From: a virus
Virus record (IMG/VR): IMGVR_UViG_3300015368_000030
Location: 1 to 24,814 of that record
Length of the DNA stretch: 24,814 nt
Direction: 5' to 3' (one strand)
Shown: positions 3,953 to 24,580 of the stretch, piece after piece
Position numbering within the stretch: the stretch's first letter is position 1
Layout: every line of letters begins with the position of its first letter
The notes under the pieces: generated by a model
The model's input: the letters and a program-made list of their open reading frames with translations, nothing else
Databases searched by the model: none
Told to the model about the DNA's origin: nothing
Position numbers and translations under genes: made by a program

Positions 3953-4864
3953 ATGTCTAGCACTATGCTTCAGTTAGTGCAGCAAGTGACCAATGAATTA
4001 GGCGTGACAACACCGACAAGTGTTGCTGGAAATACTAATCAAGACATTATCCAAATTCTTGCATTAATGAATGCAAGTGGATATGAGTTTCTCCGCAAAC
4101 ATCCTTGGCGAACACTTACAAAGCAAAAACAGTTTTATACTGAGTATTTAACCACAACAGGCACTTGGAGTGATGATGGGACATCTATTACAGATATTCC
4201 GTCAACAAGTGGGTTAGATAACACCTACATGGTGGTTGGCACAGGCATTGACCAAAACACCTTTATCACAACGGTGGATTCTGGCACATCCGTCACGGTT
4301 GATAGAAGAACCAATACTGCTCAAACTGATGCAACTGTGTACTTCCAAAAAATGAAGTATGCATTTCCAAGCGATTATGAAGCTATCATTCCAAGAACAA
4401 TGTGGGATAAAGATAAGCATTGGGAAATGCTAGGCCCTGAAGATGCTCAACAATGGGAATGGCTGTTGTCTGGATACATTGCAACTGGCCCTCGCATTAG
4501 ATGGCGTTTGTTTAGCAAATATTTCCAAATATGGCCTGGCTTCTCTAATGCCGAGTATCTTGGCTATGAATACCGTTCAAATTCTTGGGTAAATAGTTCA
4601 ACGGATATTCCAAAAACATCATTCACCAATGATTCGGACACTTGCATCTATCCTGATCGTTTGATGGTGTTGTCAACCAAGCTGAAATATTTTGAAGCTA
4701 AAGGTTTTGACACTACAGCAATGTATCGCAATTATTTAGAAGAAATGGAAGCGGCTATTGCTTTGGATATGTCTGCGGCTAATTTGTCGTTTGCGCCAAG
4801 GCCAGGCACGATCTTGGTGGGCTATGACAACATACCCGATAGCGGTTATGGGGCATCACCATAA
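3953..4864 (+). CDS. Head-to-tail adaptor (gp4-like) protein
   Basis: This 303-residue protein begins with a helical region (MLQLVQQVTNELG, then LALMNASGYEFLRKHPW) typical of the head-tail adaptor proteins of short-tailed phages, which form a ring under the portal. Residues ~70-125 look like a small beta insertion (VVGTGIDQNTFITTVDSG). The rest contains conserved Trp-rich segments (MWDKDKHWEMLGPEDAQQW). The stop TAA shares one base with the ATG of the next gene (TAATG), so translation is probably coupled to the tail hub gene. Confidence 0.7.
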   Translation: MSSTMLQLVQQVTNELGVTTPTSVAGNTNQDIIQILALMNASGYEFLRKHPWRTLTKQKQFYTEYLTTTGTWSDDGTSITDIPSTSGLDNTYMVVGTGIDQNTFITTVDSGTSVTVDRRTNTAQTDATVYFQKMKYAFPSDYEAIIPRTMWDKDKHWEMLGPEDAQQWEWLLSGYIATGPRIRWRLFSKYFQIWPGFSNAEYLGYEYRSNSWVNSSTDIPKTSFTNDSDTCIYPDRLMVLSTKLKYFEAKGFDTTAMYRNYLEEMEAAIALDMSAANLSFAPRPGTILVGYDNIPDSGYGASP

Positions 4865-6408
4865 TGCCAAGAATTGCCCAAAGAACTGCCGCTAATGTTG
4901 CAAGCATTCCAGCCCCAGTTGGCGGTTGGAATGTAAGAGATTCATTGGCAAATATGTCACCAACTGATGCGGTGACAATGAATAATTTTTTTCCAACTGT
5001 TTCAAGTGTTAATTTGCGTGGTGGATACAGCAAATGGTCAACGGGCATAACAGGCCAAGTTGACACAGTAATGGCTTATGAAACGGGAACAGTGAGCAAG
5101 TTATTTGCAATTGCTGGTGGCTCAATTTACGACTGCTCAAGCAAGGGTGCTGTTGGCGCTGCTGAAAAAACAGGCTTGACCAATAGCCGTTTTGAACATA
5201 TCAATGTCACAACGCCTGGAGGCAGTTTCCTCTATGCTTGCAATGGCGTGGATGACCCATTGCTTTATAACGGCACAACATGGTCAAGTATTAACGGATC
5301 AAGCTCACCAATAGCAATTACTGGAGTTACTACCAATAAACTCAACAATGTGACATTGTTTAAAAACCGAGTGTGGTTTATTGAAAAAGAAAGTTTAAAA
5401 GCATGGTATTTGCCAACAAATTCAGTTGGTGGGGCTGCTGAAGTTTTAGACTTGAGTTCTATTGCTCGAATGGGCGGTTATATAGTTTCTCTAAGCGCAT
5501 GGACTATTGATGCGGGTTATGGCGTTGACGATAACCTTGTGTTTGTAACGTCTCAGGGCGAGATTATTGTTTATCGAGGCACAGACCCAGCATCCGCAAG
5601 TACATGGGCTTTAGCGGGCGTTTGGAAGCTCGGAGCGCCCATTTCTAGGCGTTGTTTGTATAAGTATGGTGGCGATCTATTAATTTTGAGTTTAGATGGT
5701 TTATTGCCCTTGGCATCAGCTTTGCAATCAAGCCGACTTGACCCAAGGGTTAATTTGTCTGACAAGATTCAAGGCGCTATTACCGAGGTTACGACCACAT
5801 ATCAAAATTCGTTTGGTTGGGCTTTGCTTTATCACGCTAAAAACAATGCTTTGTGGATCAATGTACCTATTGGGCTTGGTGCTCAAGAGCAATTTGTAAT
5901 GAATACTATTACAAAGTCATGGACAAAGTTTACAGGATGGGCTGCTAATTGTTGGGAAACCTTTGAAGACAATCCTTATTTTGGTGGAGATGGTTTTGTT
6001 GGGATGGCTTGGGATGGGTTTACTGATGACATAAATGACATCAATGCAGTTGCTTTGCAAGCGTTTAATTATTATGATAATCGTGGCGTTAAGAAGTACT
6101 TTACAAGAGCAAGACCATCAATCTTTACCGATGGAAGCCCATCCATTTCGGTGGGCATAAATGTTGATTTTGATATATCTAATGCAACTGGTGCTTTGAA
6201 TTTTAGTCCTACCAATTATGGAACATGGGACACATCTGTCTGGGATAACGCATTATGGGCAAGTGGCCCAGTTATCACAAATAATTGGCAAGGAGTTACA
6301 GGCATTGGCTACTGTGCGGGTATTCAGCTAAAATCGGCATCACAAGGCTTGCAAATTGAGTGGGCTTCAACCGATGTGGTTTTCCAACAGGGATGGGCTG
6401 GTATATGA
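4864..6408 (+). CDS. Tail hub/nozzle or DNA-stabilisation protein (P22 gp10-like)
   Basis: This 514-residue protein has an N-terminus (PAPVGGWNVRDSLANM, then AVTMNNFFPT) common to proteins that cap the adaptor in P22-like phages. The body is Gly-, Trp- and Thr-rich with repeated short beta strands (LFAIAGGSIYDCS, LYACNGVDDPLLYNG, NLVFVTSQGEIIVYRG), as expected for a beta-propeller. It probably forms the tail nozzle that holds packaged DNA. It is coupled to the adaptor upstream (TAATG) and to the GNAT-like gene downstream (ATGA at 6405). Confidence 0.75.
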   Translation: MPRIAQRTAANVASIPAPVGGWNVRDSLANMSPTDAVTMNNFFPTVSSVNLRGGYSKWSTGITGQVDTVMAYETGTVSKLFAIAGGSIYDCSSKGAVGAAEKTGLTNSRFEHINVTTPGGSFLYACNGVDDPLLYNGTTWSSINGSSSPIAITGVTTNKLNNVTLFKNRVWFIEKESLKAWYLPTNSVGGAAEVLDLSSIARMGGYIVSLSAWTIDAGYGVDDNLVFVTSQGEIIVYRGTDPASASTWALAGVWKLGAPISRRCLYKYGGDLLILSLDGLLPLASALQSSRLDPRVNLSDKIQGAITEVTTTYQNSFGWALLYHAKNNALWINVPIGLGAQEQFVMNTITKSWTKFTGWAANCWETFEDNPYFGGDGFVGMAWDGFTDDINDINAVALQAFNYYDNRGVKKYFTRARPSIFTDGSPSISVGINVDFDISNATGALNFSPTNYGTWDTSVWDNALWASGPVITNNWQGVTGIGYCAGIQLKSASQGLQIEWASTDVVFQQGWAGI

Positions 6409-19400: not shown

Positions 19401-19502
19401 CTAGTGCGATAGTGATTCGATCATTGCCCATACAAGTATTCCTACCATTCCGATTAAACACATTAGCCCAAACAAGGCTAAAACCAAAATTGCTGTACTC
19501 AT
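19401..19502 (-). CDS. 33-residue single-pass membrane peptide
   Basis: The frame encodes MSTAILVLALFGLMCLIGM followed by VGILVWAMIE and a short polar tail. One hydrophobic segment covers most of it. Its ATG overlaps the RusA stop (ATGA), and a GAGGG ribosome site lies 8-9 bases upstream inside the end of the RusA gene. It fills what would otherwise be a gap between RusA and the helical protein. Function unknown. Confidence 0.55.
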   Translation of the reverse strand: MSTAILVLALFGLMCLIGMVGILVWAMIESLSH

Positions 19503-19918
19503 TCTGTTTCCCTCACTAAAACTTCAACACATGGTTCGCCATACACTTTGGTGCAATGCAAGTTAACAACCTGAGTGTCATCATCGTAAACAATTTTGTT
19601 CATGCTGTCTAAAAATTGCTTGCAAACATTGTCTATGTCGGGCTTTTTCGTAGGTTTCTCCGATCCGTTTAAACAGGCTTCCTTGCGTTTTTTGCTGTAC
19701 GAAGTAGGAACGGGCATGGAGATGTAAATAAACGCATCTACTGGCGTTTTAAGCGGTTTTGAAGCCCCCATTGCACGTTTGGCACAAAAAGCTATATGTT
19801 CTTCATAAGATTTTGTTTTGGCATCGGTGTAAGTCTTGACAAAACCGCCCATGCGTGCAAAACGTGGACGGCCTTTGCCTTGGGGGTTGCCGTCAACTTT
19901 GAATGTTACTTGAAACAT
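19499..19918 (-). CDS. rusA: RusA-type Holliday junction resolvase
   Basis: This 139-residue protein has the RusA pattern: an N-terminal strand with KVDGNPQGKGRPRFAR, a Lys/Arg-rich middle and the active-site region KPDIDNVCKQFLDSMN (Asp94, Asp96, Lys100) followed by VYDDDTQVVNLHCTK (further acidic residues at 112-114). RusA dimers cut four-way DNA junctions. The length is close to the ~120 residues of E. coli RusA. AAGGAA lies upstream of its ATG, which falls within the end of the previous gene. It probably works with the ERF/exonuclease set on the other strand. Confidence 0.9.
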   Translation of the reverse strand: MFQVTFKVDGNPQGKGRPRFARMGGFVKTYTDAKTKSYEEHIAFCAKRAMGASKPLKTPVDAFIYISMPVPTSYSKKRKEACLNGSEKPTKKPDIDNVCKQFLDSMNKIVYDDDTQVVNLHCTKVYGEPCVEVLVRETE

Positions 19919-20704: not shown

Positions 20705-20863
20705 TCAAGTATTTAAAAACCATTCAGGATGCAATAATTGCAATTGCCATACTCTCGCTTGGGGGATTTGTTTCCATTGACAAACGGCCATCCTTGTAAT
20801 ACCGAGTATTTTTGCAAGTTTGTACTGATTGCCAGCTAATTTGATTGCTTGTTCTTTAGTCAT
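20705..20863 (-). CDS. Cro/YdaS-like helix-turn-helix repressor, 52 residues
   Basis: The frame reads MTKEQAIKLAGNQYKLAKIL, then GITRMAVCQWKQIPQARV. This matches the Cro/YdaS type of small DNA-binding protein: a KLAG-x-Q-x-x-LA-x-x-LGI-T-x-x-AV-x-QW pattern, where residues ~14-32 form the helix-turn-helix. It is close in size to lambda Cro (66 residues). It is transcribed away from the plus-strand early genes, and half-sites suited to a repressor lie over its own start and over the opposing promoter. No clear ribosome site precedes the ATG, so a very short or leaderless mRNA is possible. Confidence 0.75.
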   Translation of the reverse strand: MTKEQAIKLAGNQYKLAKILGITRMAVCQWKQIPQARVWQLQLLHPEWFLNT

Positions 20864-21445: not shown

Positions 21446-21639
21446 TGAACGAATTTAAACGTATTGAATCTAATTGTTTAGAAGCAATGTCAAAGTATCA
21501 GCTTAACGACAGTTTTGCATTTCAATGTGGCTATTACAAATCACAAACAGAACGCTTATGTGCTGAAGTTGAGTTTTTAAGACAAGAACTTGAATCAACA
21601 ATTGAAGAAATCAAAGAAATAACTAAGGATTATGTATGA
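21445..21639 (+). CDS. Small coiled-coil early protein
   Basis: The ATG at 21445 (TAATG with the previous stop, GGAG upstream) is preferred to TTG 21433. The 64-residue product ends in a charged helix (ERLCAEVEFLRQELEST and on) that could form a coiled coil. The stop overlaps the ERF gene as ATGA. It lies immediately upstream of the annealing protein and may be an accessory factor; not recognised. Confidence 0.6.
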   Translation: MNEFKRIESNCLEAMSKYQLNDSFAFQCGYYKSQTERLCAEVEFLRQELESTIEEIKEITKDYV

Positions 21640-22208
21640 AAGAAATAGCAACAGCATTGGTTAAAGCTCAAAAGGCGTTTAATCCTGCTTTAAAGCAGTC
21701 TGTGAACCCTCATTTCAAGTCAAGGTATGTTGACCTTGCTGGGTGCGTTGAGGCGGTTATAGACGCTTTAAATGACAACGGCATATTCTTACTTCAAAAG
21801 ACTTATGAATGCGATAACGGCATTATTTTGGAAACAATATTTATTCACGAATCAGGCGAATCAATGGAGTGTGGCAAATTGCACTTTCCAGCGGTTAAGC
21901 ACGATCCCCAGGGCTATGCGAGTGCTTTGACCTATGCTCGCAGATATAGCTTGATGGCAGCGTGTGGAATAGCTCCTGAAGATGATGACGGCAACCAAGC
22001 ATCTAAGCCAAAGCCTAATTTGCCAGTTAAAAGCCATGTTGATCCAATTTCACTAGGTTTATTGGTTGACAAGATGCGTGAAGCACAGAATGAAGAACAG
22101 CTAAAAGCTAGTTTCAGAATTGCATATCAAGCGTGCCACAACGAAAAACAATGGCAAGAAATGGTCAACAAAGTAAAAAATGAATTAAGAGAGGCTTTTA
22201 ATGGATGA
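21636..22208 (+). CDS. ERF-family single-strand annealing protein
   Basis: This 190-residue protein matches the ERF family of phage recombinases: IATALVKAQKAFNPALKQS, then NPHFKSRYVDLAGCVEAV, FIHESGESMECGKL and the late segment DPQGYASALTYARRYSLMA. ERF proteins bind single-stranded DNA and anneal complementary strands in phage recombination. The C-terminal ~60 residues form a separate helical tail. Together with the exonuclease and SSB-like genes downstream it makes a lambda-Red-like set. Confidence 0.88.
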   Translation: MKEIATALVKAQKAFNPALKQSVNPHFKSRYVDLAGCVEAVIDALNDNGIFLLQKTYECDNGIILETIFIHESGESMECGKLHFPAVKHDPQGYASALTYARRYSLMAACGIAPEDDDGNQASKPKPNLPVKSHVDPISLGLLVDKMREAQNEEQLKASFRIAYQACHNEKQWQEMVNKVKNELREAFNG

Positions 22209-22323
22209 TTTACCTTGCCCAGTTTGCCCTCTAGGAGAGCTAGAGATTATTGAAACCCGCAGACACTTGCATTGTGCTATTTGCGGACATTATGAACCCA
22301 TAGAGGATGATGAAAATGACTAA
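22201..22323 (+). CDS. 40-residue zinc-ribbon protein
   Basis: The frame has two Cys pairs (CPVC near residue 6 and CAIC near residue 25), followed by an acidic tail (PIEDDEND). This fits a small zinc ribbon. The ATG overlaps the ERF stop by eight bases, and AGAGAGG lies upstream. It overlaps the next gene, which has the alpha-CTD-like domain. It may bind DNA, RNA or RNA polymerase. Confidence 0.6.
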   Translation: MDDLPCPVCPLGELEIIETRRHLHCAICGHYEPIEDDEND

Positions 22324-22711
22324 AGAAATATATTTAAAGCAATATCAAGAGGCAAGAGGAACAGTCACGATGCCTGGTGAACCAATGTGGGTAGATAAAT
22401 GGGAAGTATGCGTTAAATTTAATTCACTAGAAGAAGCAAGGTCTTTTAGAAATGAAATAGAAAACCCGAGACCCAATTTTTCTATCACTATGCGTACCAA
22501 AGAAAATGAACCACATACAAGCATTGAAAAATTAAATTTAACTGTACGAACTGAACAATGTTTAAAAGCAGACGATGTTATTTCAATTGAACAGTTGCTA
22601 TGTTGTACAGAACAAAGATTACTTAAAACCCCCAATCTTGGACGTAAATCAATAAATGAAATTAAAGAAAGAATGGCAGAGTTTGGTTATAAATTAAGGG
22701 GGCAAGAATGA
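22316..22711 (+). CDS. Protein with RNA polymerase alpha C-terminal-like domain
   Basis: From the preferred ATG at 22316 (GAGG nine bases upstream) the protein has 131 residues. Residues ~68-127 read SIEKLNLTVRTEQCLKADD, IEQLL, TEQRLLKTPNLGRKSINEIK. This closely follows the host RpoA C-terminal domain, including LLKTPNLGRKS. Counterparts of the DNA-contact residues Arg265 (Arg78 here), Gly296 and Lys298 are kept; Asn268 is replaced by Gln. The N-terminal ~60 residues are unrelated to alpha. It may place the phage protein on promoter DNA or on RNA polymerase. The stop is coupled to the exonuclease gene (ATGA). Confidence 0.75.
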   Translation: MTKEIYLKQYQEARGTVTMPGEPMWVDKWEVCVKFNSLEEARSFRNEIENPRPNFSITMRTKENEPHTSIEKLNLTVRTEQCLKADDVISIEQLLCCTEQRLLKTPNLGRKSINEIKERMAEFGYKLRGQE

Positions 22712-23319
22712 TTGAGCAACGCACTCCAGAGTGGCATCAACAAAGGCTTGGTCGAGTTACGGCCTCGGCTATATCAAACGTCATTGCCAAAACAAAAACA
22801 GGCCCTAGCGCCTCCAGAGAGAACTACAGCACACAATTAACGTTGGAACGCTTAACAGGCCAACAAGCAGAGTTTTACACCAATGCAGCAATGGAGTGGG
22901 GAACAGCTACCGAACCCCAAGCAAGGCAGCATTATGAGTTGTATAGGGACGTTTTTGTGGATGAAGTAGGCTTTATCACGCACCCTACCATTGAAATGTC
23001 AGGCGCAAGTCCTGATGGGTTTGTGGGTGAAGATGGCTTGGTAGAGATCAAATGCCCCGAAAGCAAGACACAAATGGAAACATTGCTTAATCAAAAAGTT
23101 CCTACTAAATACATCCCACAGATGCAATGGCAAATGGCGTGTACTGGCAGAAAGTGGTGCGATTTTGTGAGTTTTGATCCTCGAATGCCTGAAAACTTAC
23201 AAATATTTGTGCAAAGAGTTGAGCGTAATGATGAATATATCAAGATGCTTGAGGATGAAGTAATAGCGTTTTTAGCTGAAATCGATCAAAAAGTAGAAAT
23301 TTTAAGGAACATCAAATGA
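22708..23319 (+). CDS. YqaJ/lambda exonuclease-type recombination nuclease
   Basis: This 203-residue protein has the YqaJ/lambda-exo pattern: RTPEWHQQRLGRVTASAIS near the N-terminus, MEWGTATEPQARQHYE, and the PD-(D/E)xK core SGASPDGFVG-x(5)-VEIKCP with Asp103, Glu113 and Lys115. PTKYIPQMQWQMACTG follows, as in the family. It should digest one strand of double-stranded DNA ends to give substrate for the ERF protein. It is coupled to its neighbours by ATGA at both ends. Confidence 0.88.
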   Translation: MIEQRTPEWHQQRLGRVTASAISNVIAKTKTGPSASRENYSTQLTLERLTGQQAEFYTNAAMEWGTATEPQARQHYELYRDVFVDEVGFITHPTIEMSGASPDGFVGEDGLVEIKCPESKTQMETLLNQKVPTKYIPQMQWQMACTGRKWCDFVSFDPRMPENLQIFVQRVERNDEYIKMLEDEVIAFLAEIDQKVEILRNIK

Positions 23320-24025: not shown

Positions 24026-24189
24026 AAAGAATCACGTTATATTTGCCTGATTCCGTGGATGTCATCAAAAAAAGGCTAGAAGCTGACTGCGGCATACAAA
24101 TGACCTACGTTCAAGTTTTCTCATTTTTGATGAACTTTTACCTTAAACACGCCAATGAACCTAAAACAAAGTGGAGTCCCTTGCAATGA
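24022..24189 (+). CDS. Ribbon-helix-helix (Arc/MetJ-like) candidate regulator
   Basis: The chosen ATG 24022 overlaps the previous stop and has AGAGGAA upstream; a GTG at 24004 would add six residues. The 55 residues start KRITLYLPDSVDVIKKRLEA, where the short basic strand followed by helices (next part: QVFSFLMNFYLKHA) fits a ribbon-helix-helix DNA-binding fold. It could be a second early regulator. The fold call is from pattern only. Confidence 0.55.
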   Translation: MKRITLYLPDSVDVIKKRLEADCGIQMTYVQVFSFLMNFYLKHANEPKTKWSPLQ

Positions 24190-24380
24190 CTAAAGAAGAA
24201 ATCATAGAGATGGCTAAACAGGCTGGTTTTGAAGAACATCAAGCAAAATTTGATACACGCTTTGAACCCTTTGCAAAACTGGTAGCAGAAAAAGAACGCC
24301 GTGAATGTGCCAAGTTAGCCGCTGAAGTAGGGTTTTGGGGTCTTGTGAATGAAATTGAAGCTAGAGGAGAACAAGCATGA
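24186..24380 (+). CDS. Small helical protein, copy 1 of a tandem pair
   Basis: The start ATG 24186 overlaps the previous stop; a GTG at 24171 is less likely. The 64-residue product (MTKEEIIEMAKQAGFEE, then FEPFAKLVAEKERRECAKLA) closely resembles the next gene and has a typical phage FAKLVAEKER-x-x-CAK segment. The two genes share a 26-bp stretch of identical DNA (24270-24295 and 24464-24489), so this is a recent duplication. Function unknown. Confidence 0.65.
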   Translation: MTKEEIIEMAKQAGFEEHQAKFDTRFEPFAKLVAEKERRECAKLAAEVGFWGLVNEIEARGEQA

Positions 24381-24580
24381 CTAAAGAAGAAATGATTGAA
24401 CTGGCTAAACAGGCTGGTTGGGAATACGCACATGGTGAAAGTGGATTTGAACCCTTATGGGCATTTGCAAAACTGGTAGCAGAAAAAGAGCGTGAGATTT
24501 GTGCAAAGGAAGCAGAAACAACTTTTTACTCAGTTCAAGCCGCTGAGAACATTCGAGCAAAATCAGGAGATCAAAAATGA
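24377..24580 (+). CDS. Small helical protein, copy 2 of a tandem pair
   Basis: This 67-residue product is the paralog of the preceding gene: MTKEEMIELAKQAGWEY, an insert with GESGFEPLWA, then FAKLVAEKEREICAKEA. Differences gather in the middle and at the C-terminus, where copy 2 ends AENIRAKSGDQK. It overlaps both neighbours by ATGA. Function unknown. Confidence 0.65.
   Translation: MTKEEMIELAKQAGWEYAHGESGFEPLWAFAKLVAEKEREICAKEAETTFYSVQAAENIRAKSGDQK

Follow-up and report, generated by a model that had tools for sequence, protein, structure and literature searches.

A phage early-region protein with an RNA polymerase alpha-CTD-like domain and a putative role in transcription control

In the alpha subunit of Escherichia coli RNA polymerase, residues R265 and N294 contact DNA, and the acidic patch formed by D259 and E261 contacts region 4 of sigma70 at R603 (PMC5511352). 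Phage proteins carrying the C-terminal domain of alpha (alpha-CTD) have been annotated, among them ORF40 of Erythrobacter phage vB_EliS-L02 (PMC9127768), Bacillus phage Goe8 gp5, Ruegeria phage V16_23 (annotated only as an HTH protein), and proteins of Mycobacterium phage Mithril and Rhodococcus phage Finch. As in the protein described here, the alpha-CTD of each of these lies in a small phage ORF, but the fusion partners differ. UniProt entry A0A6J5L490 (131 aa) belongs to the same protein family as our protein, with 86% identity across a full-length structural alignment, and has only a domain-derived name. The existence of these entries overturns the view, given in a preliminary description of this DNA, that the fusion cannot be matched. 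No experimentally characterized phage alpha-CTD protein was found in the open-access literature searched. The gene belongs to an annotated class that is without functional study and is widespread in phages. It is a single gene in an annotated family; the domain itself shows apparently recurrent capture and many fusion partners. Beyond existing annotation, the analysis adds how broad this class is and how differently the domain's two faces have fared.

The alpha-CTD gene and its product

The window, which is the whole stretch of DNA that was analyzed, is a 24.8-kb IMG/VR virus record from a phage described as freshwater. Its alpha-CTD gene lies downstream of a Cro-like repressor gene on the opposite strand (Table 1). 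The flanking genes are those named in the preliminary description, a zinc-ribbon-like ORF, which overlaps the 5' end of the alpha-CTD gene, and an exonuclease gene. In-frame ATG codons are present at 22307, 22310, and 22316; the last is preceded eight bases upstream by AGAGG and is the start common to the six relatives whose 5' end is complete. When the region 5' of the operon was searched for promoters and UP elements, promoter-like sites were no more common than in shuffled sequence.

Table 1. Features of the window around the alpha-CTD gene
Feature	Coordinates	Strand	Evidence
RusA-like Holliday junction resolvase	19499..19918	-	phrog_140 1.5e-43
P22 Cro-like repressor, divergent from early operon	20705..20863	-	PF14549 2.8e-12
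ERF ssDNA-annealing protein	21636..22208	+	PF04404 4.8e-22; phrog_2324 1.3e-41
CxxC...CxxC zinc-ribbon-like small ORF	22201..22322	+	Sequence; weak Pfam zinc-ribbon matches
Alpha-CTD fusion protein, 131 aa	22316..22711	+	ORF; PF03118 E=3e-18; relatives
N-terminal region (aa 1-68) outside known families; strand-strand-helix in a low-confidence model	22316..22519	+	Pfam/PHROG searches, model
Alpha-CTD-like domain, aa 66-129	22511..22702	+	PF03118, PDB sequence matches, predicted fold
Gene-boundary sequence GGGGGCAAGAATGA (RGQE-stop overlapping following ATG), shared-junction variant	22698..22711	+	
YqaJ/RecE-like exonuclease	22708..23319	+	PF09588 1.5e-30; phrog_149

The C-terminal 61 residues match PF03118 (RNA_pol_A_CTD) with a score of 65.7 bits (E=3e-18), above the curated gathering cutoff of 23.8 bits, and all PDB sequence matches with an E value of <0.1 are RNA polymerase alpha subunits. 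Arg265, Cys269, and LLKTPNLGRKS align with host RpoA without gaps, as first described, and all six DNA-contact residues (R265, N294, G296, K298, S299, and E302) are present; the first four correspond to R78, N107, G109, and K111 of the window protein. In the AlphaFold2 model, the domain has a pLDDT of about 81 to 90 and superimposes on 1lb2_E (Z of 11.2 over 65 residues, rmsd of 2.1), on 8igr_G (Z of 11.2, rmsd of 1.3), and on other alpha-CTDs with Z scores of up to 12.5. Comparison of a predicted structure with RpoA CTD structures, the check proposed initially, thus returned the alpha-CTD fold with Z scores of about 11 to 12 and not a generic helix-hairpin-helix (HhH). A generic HhH identity was also rejected because the window protein matches no Pfam family other than PF03118; among 18 relatives, 3 show a weak match to HHH_5. 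These data confirm, by sequence and predicted fold, that the C-terminal part is a true alpha-CTD.

Among the cellular matches listed, the best were beta-proteobacterial RpoA CTDs (Comamonas and Neisseria; 55 to 57% identity over 58 residues). The phage domain shares with them the fold and the DNA-contact residues. It differs in being a separate small ORF without alpha-NTD or linker, in the altered sigma and CRP patches of the window family, and in the change of N268 to Q, K, or R. The nearness of these domains agrees with a beta-proteobacterial host, without proving it.

The N-terminal part is unrelated to alpha, as originally proposed: a search of Pfam found no RpoA-NTD match in the window protein, and the NCBIfam RpoA equivalogs scored far under their cutoffs and matched the CTD part only. 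Residues 1 to 68 gave no Pfam match and only weak PHROG matches (E values of 0.016 and 0.035). AlphaFold2 models them poorly, as a strand, a strand, and a helix. No relative of this region was found in genome contigs, matches in the phages collection were at chance level, and its model found nothing in 399 Burkholderiales genomes in a search run without a positive control.

Relatives, fusion partners, and origin

Close relatives with 84 to 92% identity are carried by seven IMG/VR contigs. One of them (L008:3548-3910) lacks 11 residues of the linker that joins the N-terminal region to the alpha-CTD and is otherwise about 92% identical; the length of this linker seems to be free. In a wider scan of IMG/VR, using peptide patterns that lie inside the CTD, 80 loci were obtained, of 90 confirmed; each is a small phage ORF, and no complete RpoA is among them. 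The non-CTD parts of the 63 distinct proteins fell into 22 groups without a BLAST-detectable link, a number that is an upper bound on the truly unrelated partners in the sample, as BLAST may split distant relatives.

The largest group, group 2 (L025-L064 and L184-L247), resembles the window protein in its CTD (about 59 to 71% identity), its size, and its early-region location. Its N-terminal part forms a hairpin of alpha helices (EELLDxxAxEAMK...AYxxAExMLERR; pLDDT of 92) in which no similarity to the window N-terminal part was detected. Scanning IMG/VR with the hairpin alone returned 66 loci, and in the 38 that were read, the CTD was present in every ORF not ended by a contig edge. In cellular DNA, a scan of genome contigs with the full alignment listed matches among which the ORFs that were read were full-length RpoA, and PF03118 found one strong RpoA-size match in 145 of 150 Burkholderiales genomes, together with four weak matches in large ORFs.

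Among the other sister proteins, one phage protein of 235 aa (L069:4482-5189) naturally joins sigma70 region 4 (PF04545, 1e-8) to alpha-CTD. In another contig (L088), a late-activator-type HTH is fused to alpha-CTD in one ORF, and a second alpha-CTD ORF lies close by. On a 75-kb contig (L082:2604-5192), both N4-like RNA polymerase subunit genes are followed, after about 20 nt, by an alpha-CTD ORF (4797-5192) whose product might serve the phage polymerase as a factor. N4-like polymerase genes had been suspected from a tally near L070, L087, and L090 and were not found there. At L065:4833-5294, the alpha-CTD lies, as if inserted, within a common phage ORF type (DYFAAQAM...AYAMADAMLKARE, phrog_2201).

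In a tree of 73 rows and 62 columns, the window family forms a single clade (100/98) that stands apart from RpoA and has its nearest CTDs in group 2 (89/80). Other phage CTDs fall beside alpha-proteobacterial, gamma-proteobacterial, and Firmicute/Fusobacterium RpoA, and Goe8 groups with the last of these. On the starred branches, the RpoA label has to change three times or more, which suggests that the domain was captured from host RpoA lineages at least three times; because the tree is short and long-branched, several captures are only likely. A broader generalization, which we offer tentatively and consider less probable than its opposite, is that phages repeatedly took alpha-CTD from their hosts to use it as a free module for reading DNA, removed the sigma contact, and fused the domain to many partners unrelated to each other. 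Such free alpha-CTD proteins would rival polymerase at UP elements or place other proteins on them; of a takeover strategy of this kind we found no experimental description.

The DNA face and the sigma face

Since the first scan had used patterns within the CTD, conservation was retested on sequences fetched by their N-terminal part only. This set comprised 49 group-2 sequences and 7 window-family members (26 effective sequences). Apart from the residues cited above, the members of the DNA, sigma, and CRP determinants were taken as general background, and the core positions were chosen with regard to the fold and not computed. Host identity was 0.75 at the eight DNA-determinant sites versus 0.40 at non-core sites (permutation P = 0.00045) and averaged 0.98 at R265, N294, G296, and K298. 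At the sigma patch (residues 257 to 261) it was only 0.16, and at sites 285 to 288 it was 0.43. R265 was present in 65 of 65 phage CTDs of the first set, two of which, from Bacillus Goe8 and Ruegeria V16, had been picked up by tblastn.

D259 and E261 are replaced by K and N in the window protein and in all seven members of its family, and they are mostly changed likewise in group 2. Many phage CTDs outside this clade still have an acidic residue at both positions, so it is the window/group-2 clade that has lost the sigma patch, and not phage alpha-CTDs as a whole. In the 287 determinant, E288 is replaced by R in the window protein and V287 is variable. N268 is Q in the window protein, basic (K or R) in six of the seven family members, and mostly R or H in group 2, which fits a DNA-binding role. 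The DNA determinant of this clade is not wholly intact: close window relatives have A or P for S299 and F or W for C269, and distant group-2 members have G for S299 and have lost E302. Within the window family, the helix-1 segment (aa 77 to 86) has a dN of 0.27, compared with 0.033 in the rest of the CTD at similar dS, which is eight times the amino acid divergence. The fastest-changing part is therefore the DNA-contacting helix 1, as a result of either specificity drift or relaxed constraint; its dN/dS of 0.42 is below 1.

Putative role and gene order

We lean toward the window protein being a stand-alone DNA-binding transcription regulator that has the minor-groove grip of alpha-CTD and acts free of polymerase, a reading that we hold to be somewhat better than even. 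The protein would be a captured alpha-CTD with a short phage-specific N-terminal module. The kept residues Arg265, Asn294, Gly296, and Lys298 predict binding to an A+T-rich minor groove of the UP-element type. Action apart from polymerase, which is less certain than DNA binding, is suggested because the sigma- and CRP-contact patches are altered and the alpha-NTD is absent. The regulator would occupy UP-like sites and either compete there with host alpha-CTD or carry its N-terminal module to them; that this module serves self-association or partner binding is a guess. A DNA face kept with a sigma face lost predicts, for the window clade, proteins that bind UP elements but have ceased to recruit polymerase. 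If this is true, phages would have a simple means of weakening strong host promoters that are driven by UP elements, rRNA promoters among them, and the sigma region 4 fusions would be natural two-part promoter readers.

Several observations count against this regulator. The neighbors are chiefly replication and recombination genes, which equally fit an accessory factor for those processes; the DNA determinant has changed at S299, C269, or E302 in relatives; the N-terminal part is uninformative, with a model of low confidence; and relaxed constraint would also explain the dN/dS of helix 1. As an accessory factor, the protein would use its alpha-CTD, a fold of the HhH type, as a mere DNA grip aiding annealing by ERF or RecT and a RecE-type exonuclease. 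The position of the window gene between ERF and exonuclease fits this account, as do the neighbors of group 2 and the other groups, in which replication and recombination genes (RusA resolvases, primosomal/O proteins, RecE, RecT, ERF, SSB, and polymerase) are abundant, and the presence of the Dmc1 N-terminal domain among the structural look-alikes of the model. Phage early regions contain such genes anyway, however, and the sequence is specifically that of alpha-CTD and not of a generic HhH. Sister proteins also combine the domain with sigma-like HTHs. Nor is the gene order kept, contrary to the initial emphasis on a position in a recombination operon: in L004 the alpha-CTD gene precedes a RecT-like gene, in L008 it follows the exonuclease gene and is separated from it by small ORFs, and in L006 it lies behind a RuvC-like ORF (recognized by eye) and small ORFs, with no annealing gene recognized among the immediate neighbors. 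Recombination genes are nearby in several relatives but not in all, in varying order. We consider an accessory role unlikely, if still a serious candidate. Putative transcription control is favored over it; the transcription reading is helped by the sister proteins with sigma region 4, an HTH, or adjacent polymerase genes and the recombination reading by neighborhood only.

The protein could also act through polymerase, binding UP-like DNA and either contacting polymerase or sigma with its N-terminal domain or replacing alpha-CTD function, so that host polymerase is redirected to phage promoters. The kept DNA face, the fusions to sigma region 4 or activator-type HTHs, and the alpha-CTD adjoining phage RNA polymerase genes are in line with such an activator. 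Against it, the window family and, for the most part, group 2 have K and N in place of the sigma-contacting residues D259 and E261 (PMC5511352). The alpha-NTD is absent, and the N-terminal region has no match to known polymerase-binding families. We therefore judge this activator improbable, and the early suggestion that the domain could take the place of alpha-CTD is not supported, given the lack of an alpha-NTD and the changed acidic pair. Phages are known to use decoys of host contact surfaces, and the protein might mimic alpha-CTD to soak up host activators through contacts of the CRP/AR1 type. This we regard as very improbable, as the conserved face is the DNA face and the 287 determinant is the one that is altered.

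Whichever role the putative regulator has, its gene shares a start, ATGACTAAAGAA, and an end, GGGGACAAGAATGA, with its relatives, and the upstream neighbors differ in nearly every contig. The alpha-CTD gene therefore behaves as an exchangeable cassette. ERF-type Rad52-like recombinases efficiently recombine diverged sequences (PMC3945230) and may have a part in this exchange. A repeated small-ORF family (MTKEEII...RGQE) has ends that match those of the alpha-CTD gene. Arrays of this family (MTKEEII...AIRARGQE) are present at 24186-24580 of the window and in 60 IMG/VR contigs (L013 and L248-L306), in which the 21-nt stop/start boundary joining the small ORFs, GGGGACAAGAATGACTAAAGA, is exact; the same boundary also borders the alpha-CTD gene in relatives.
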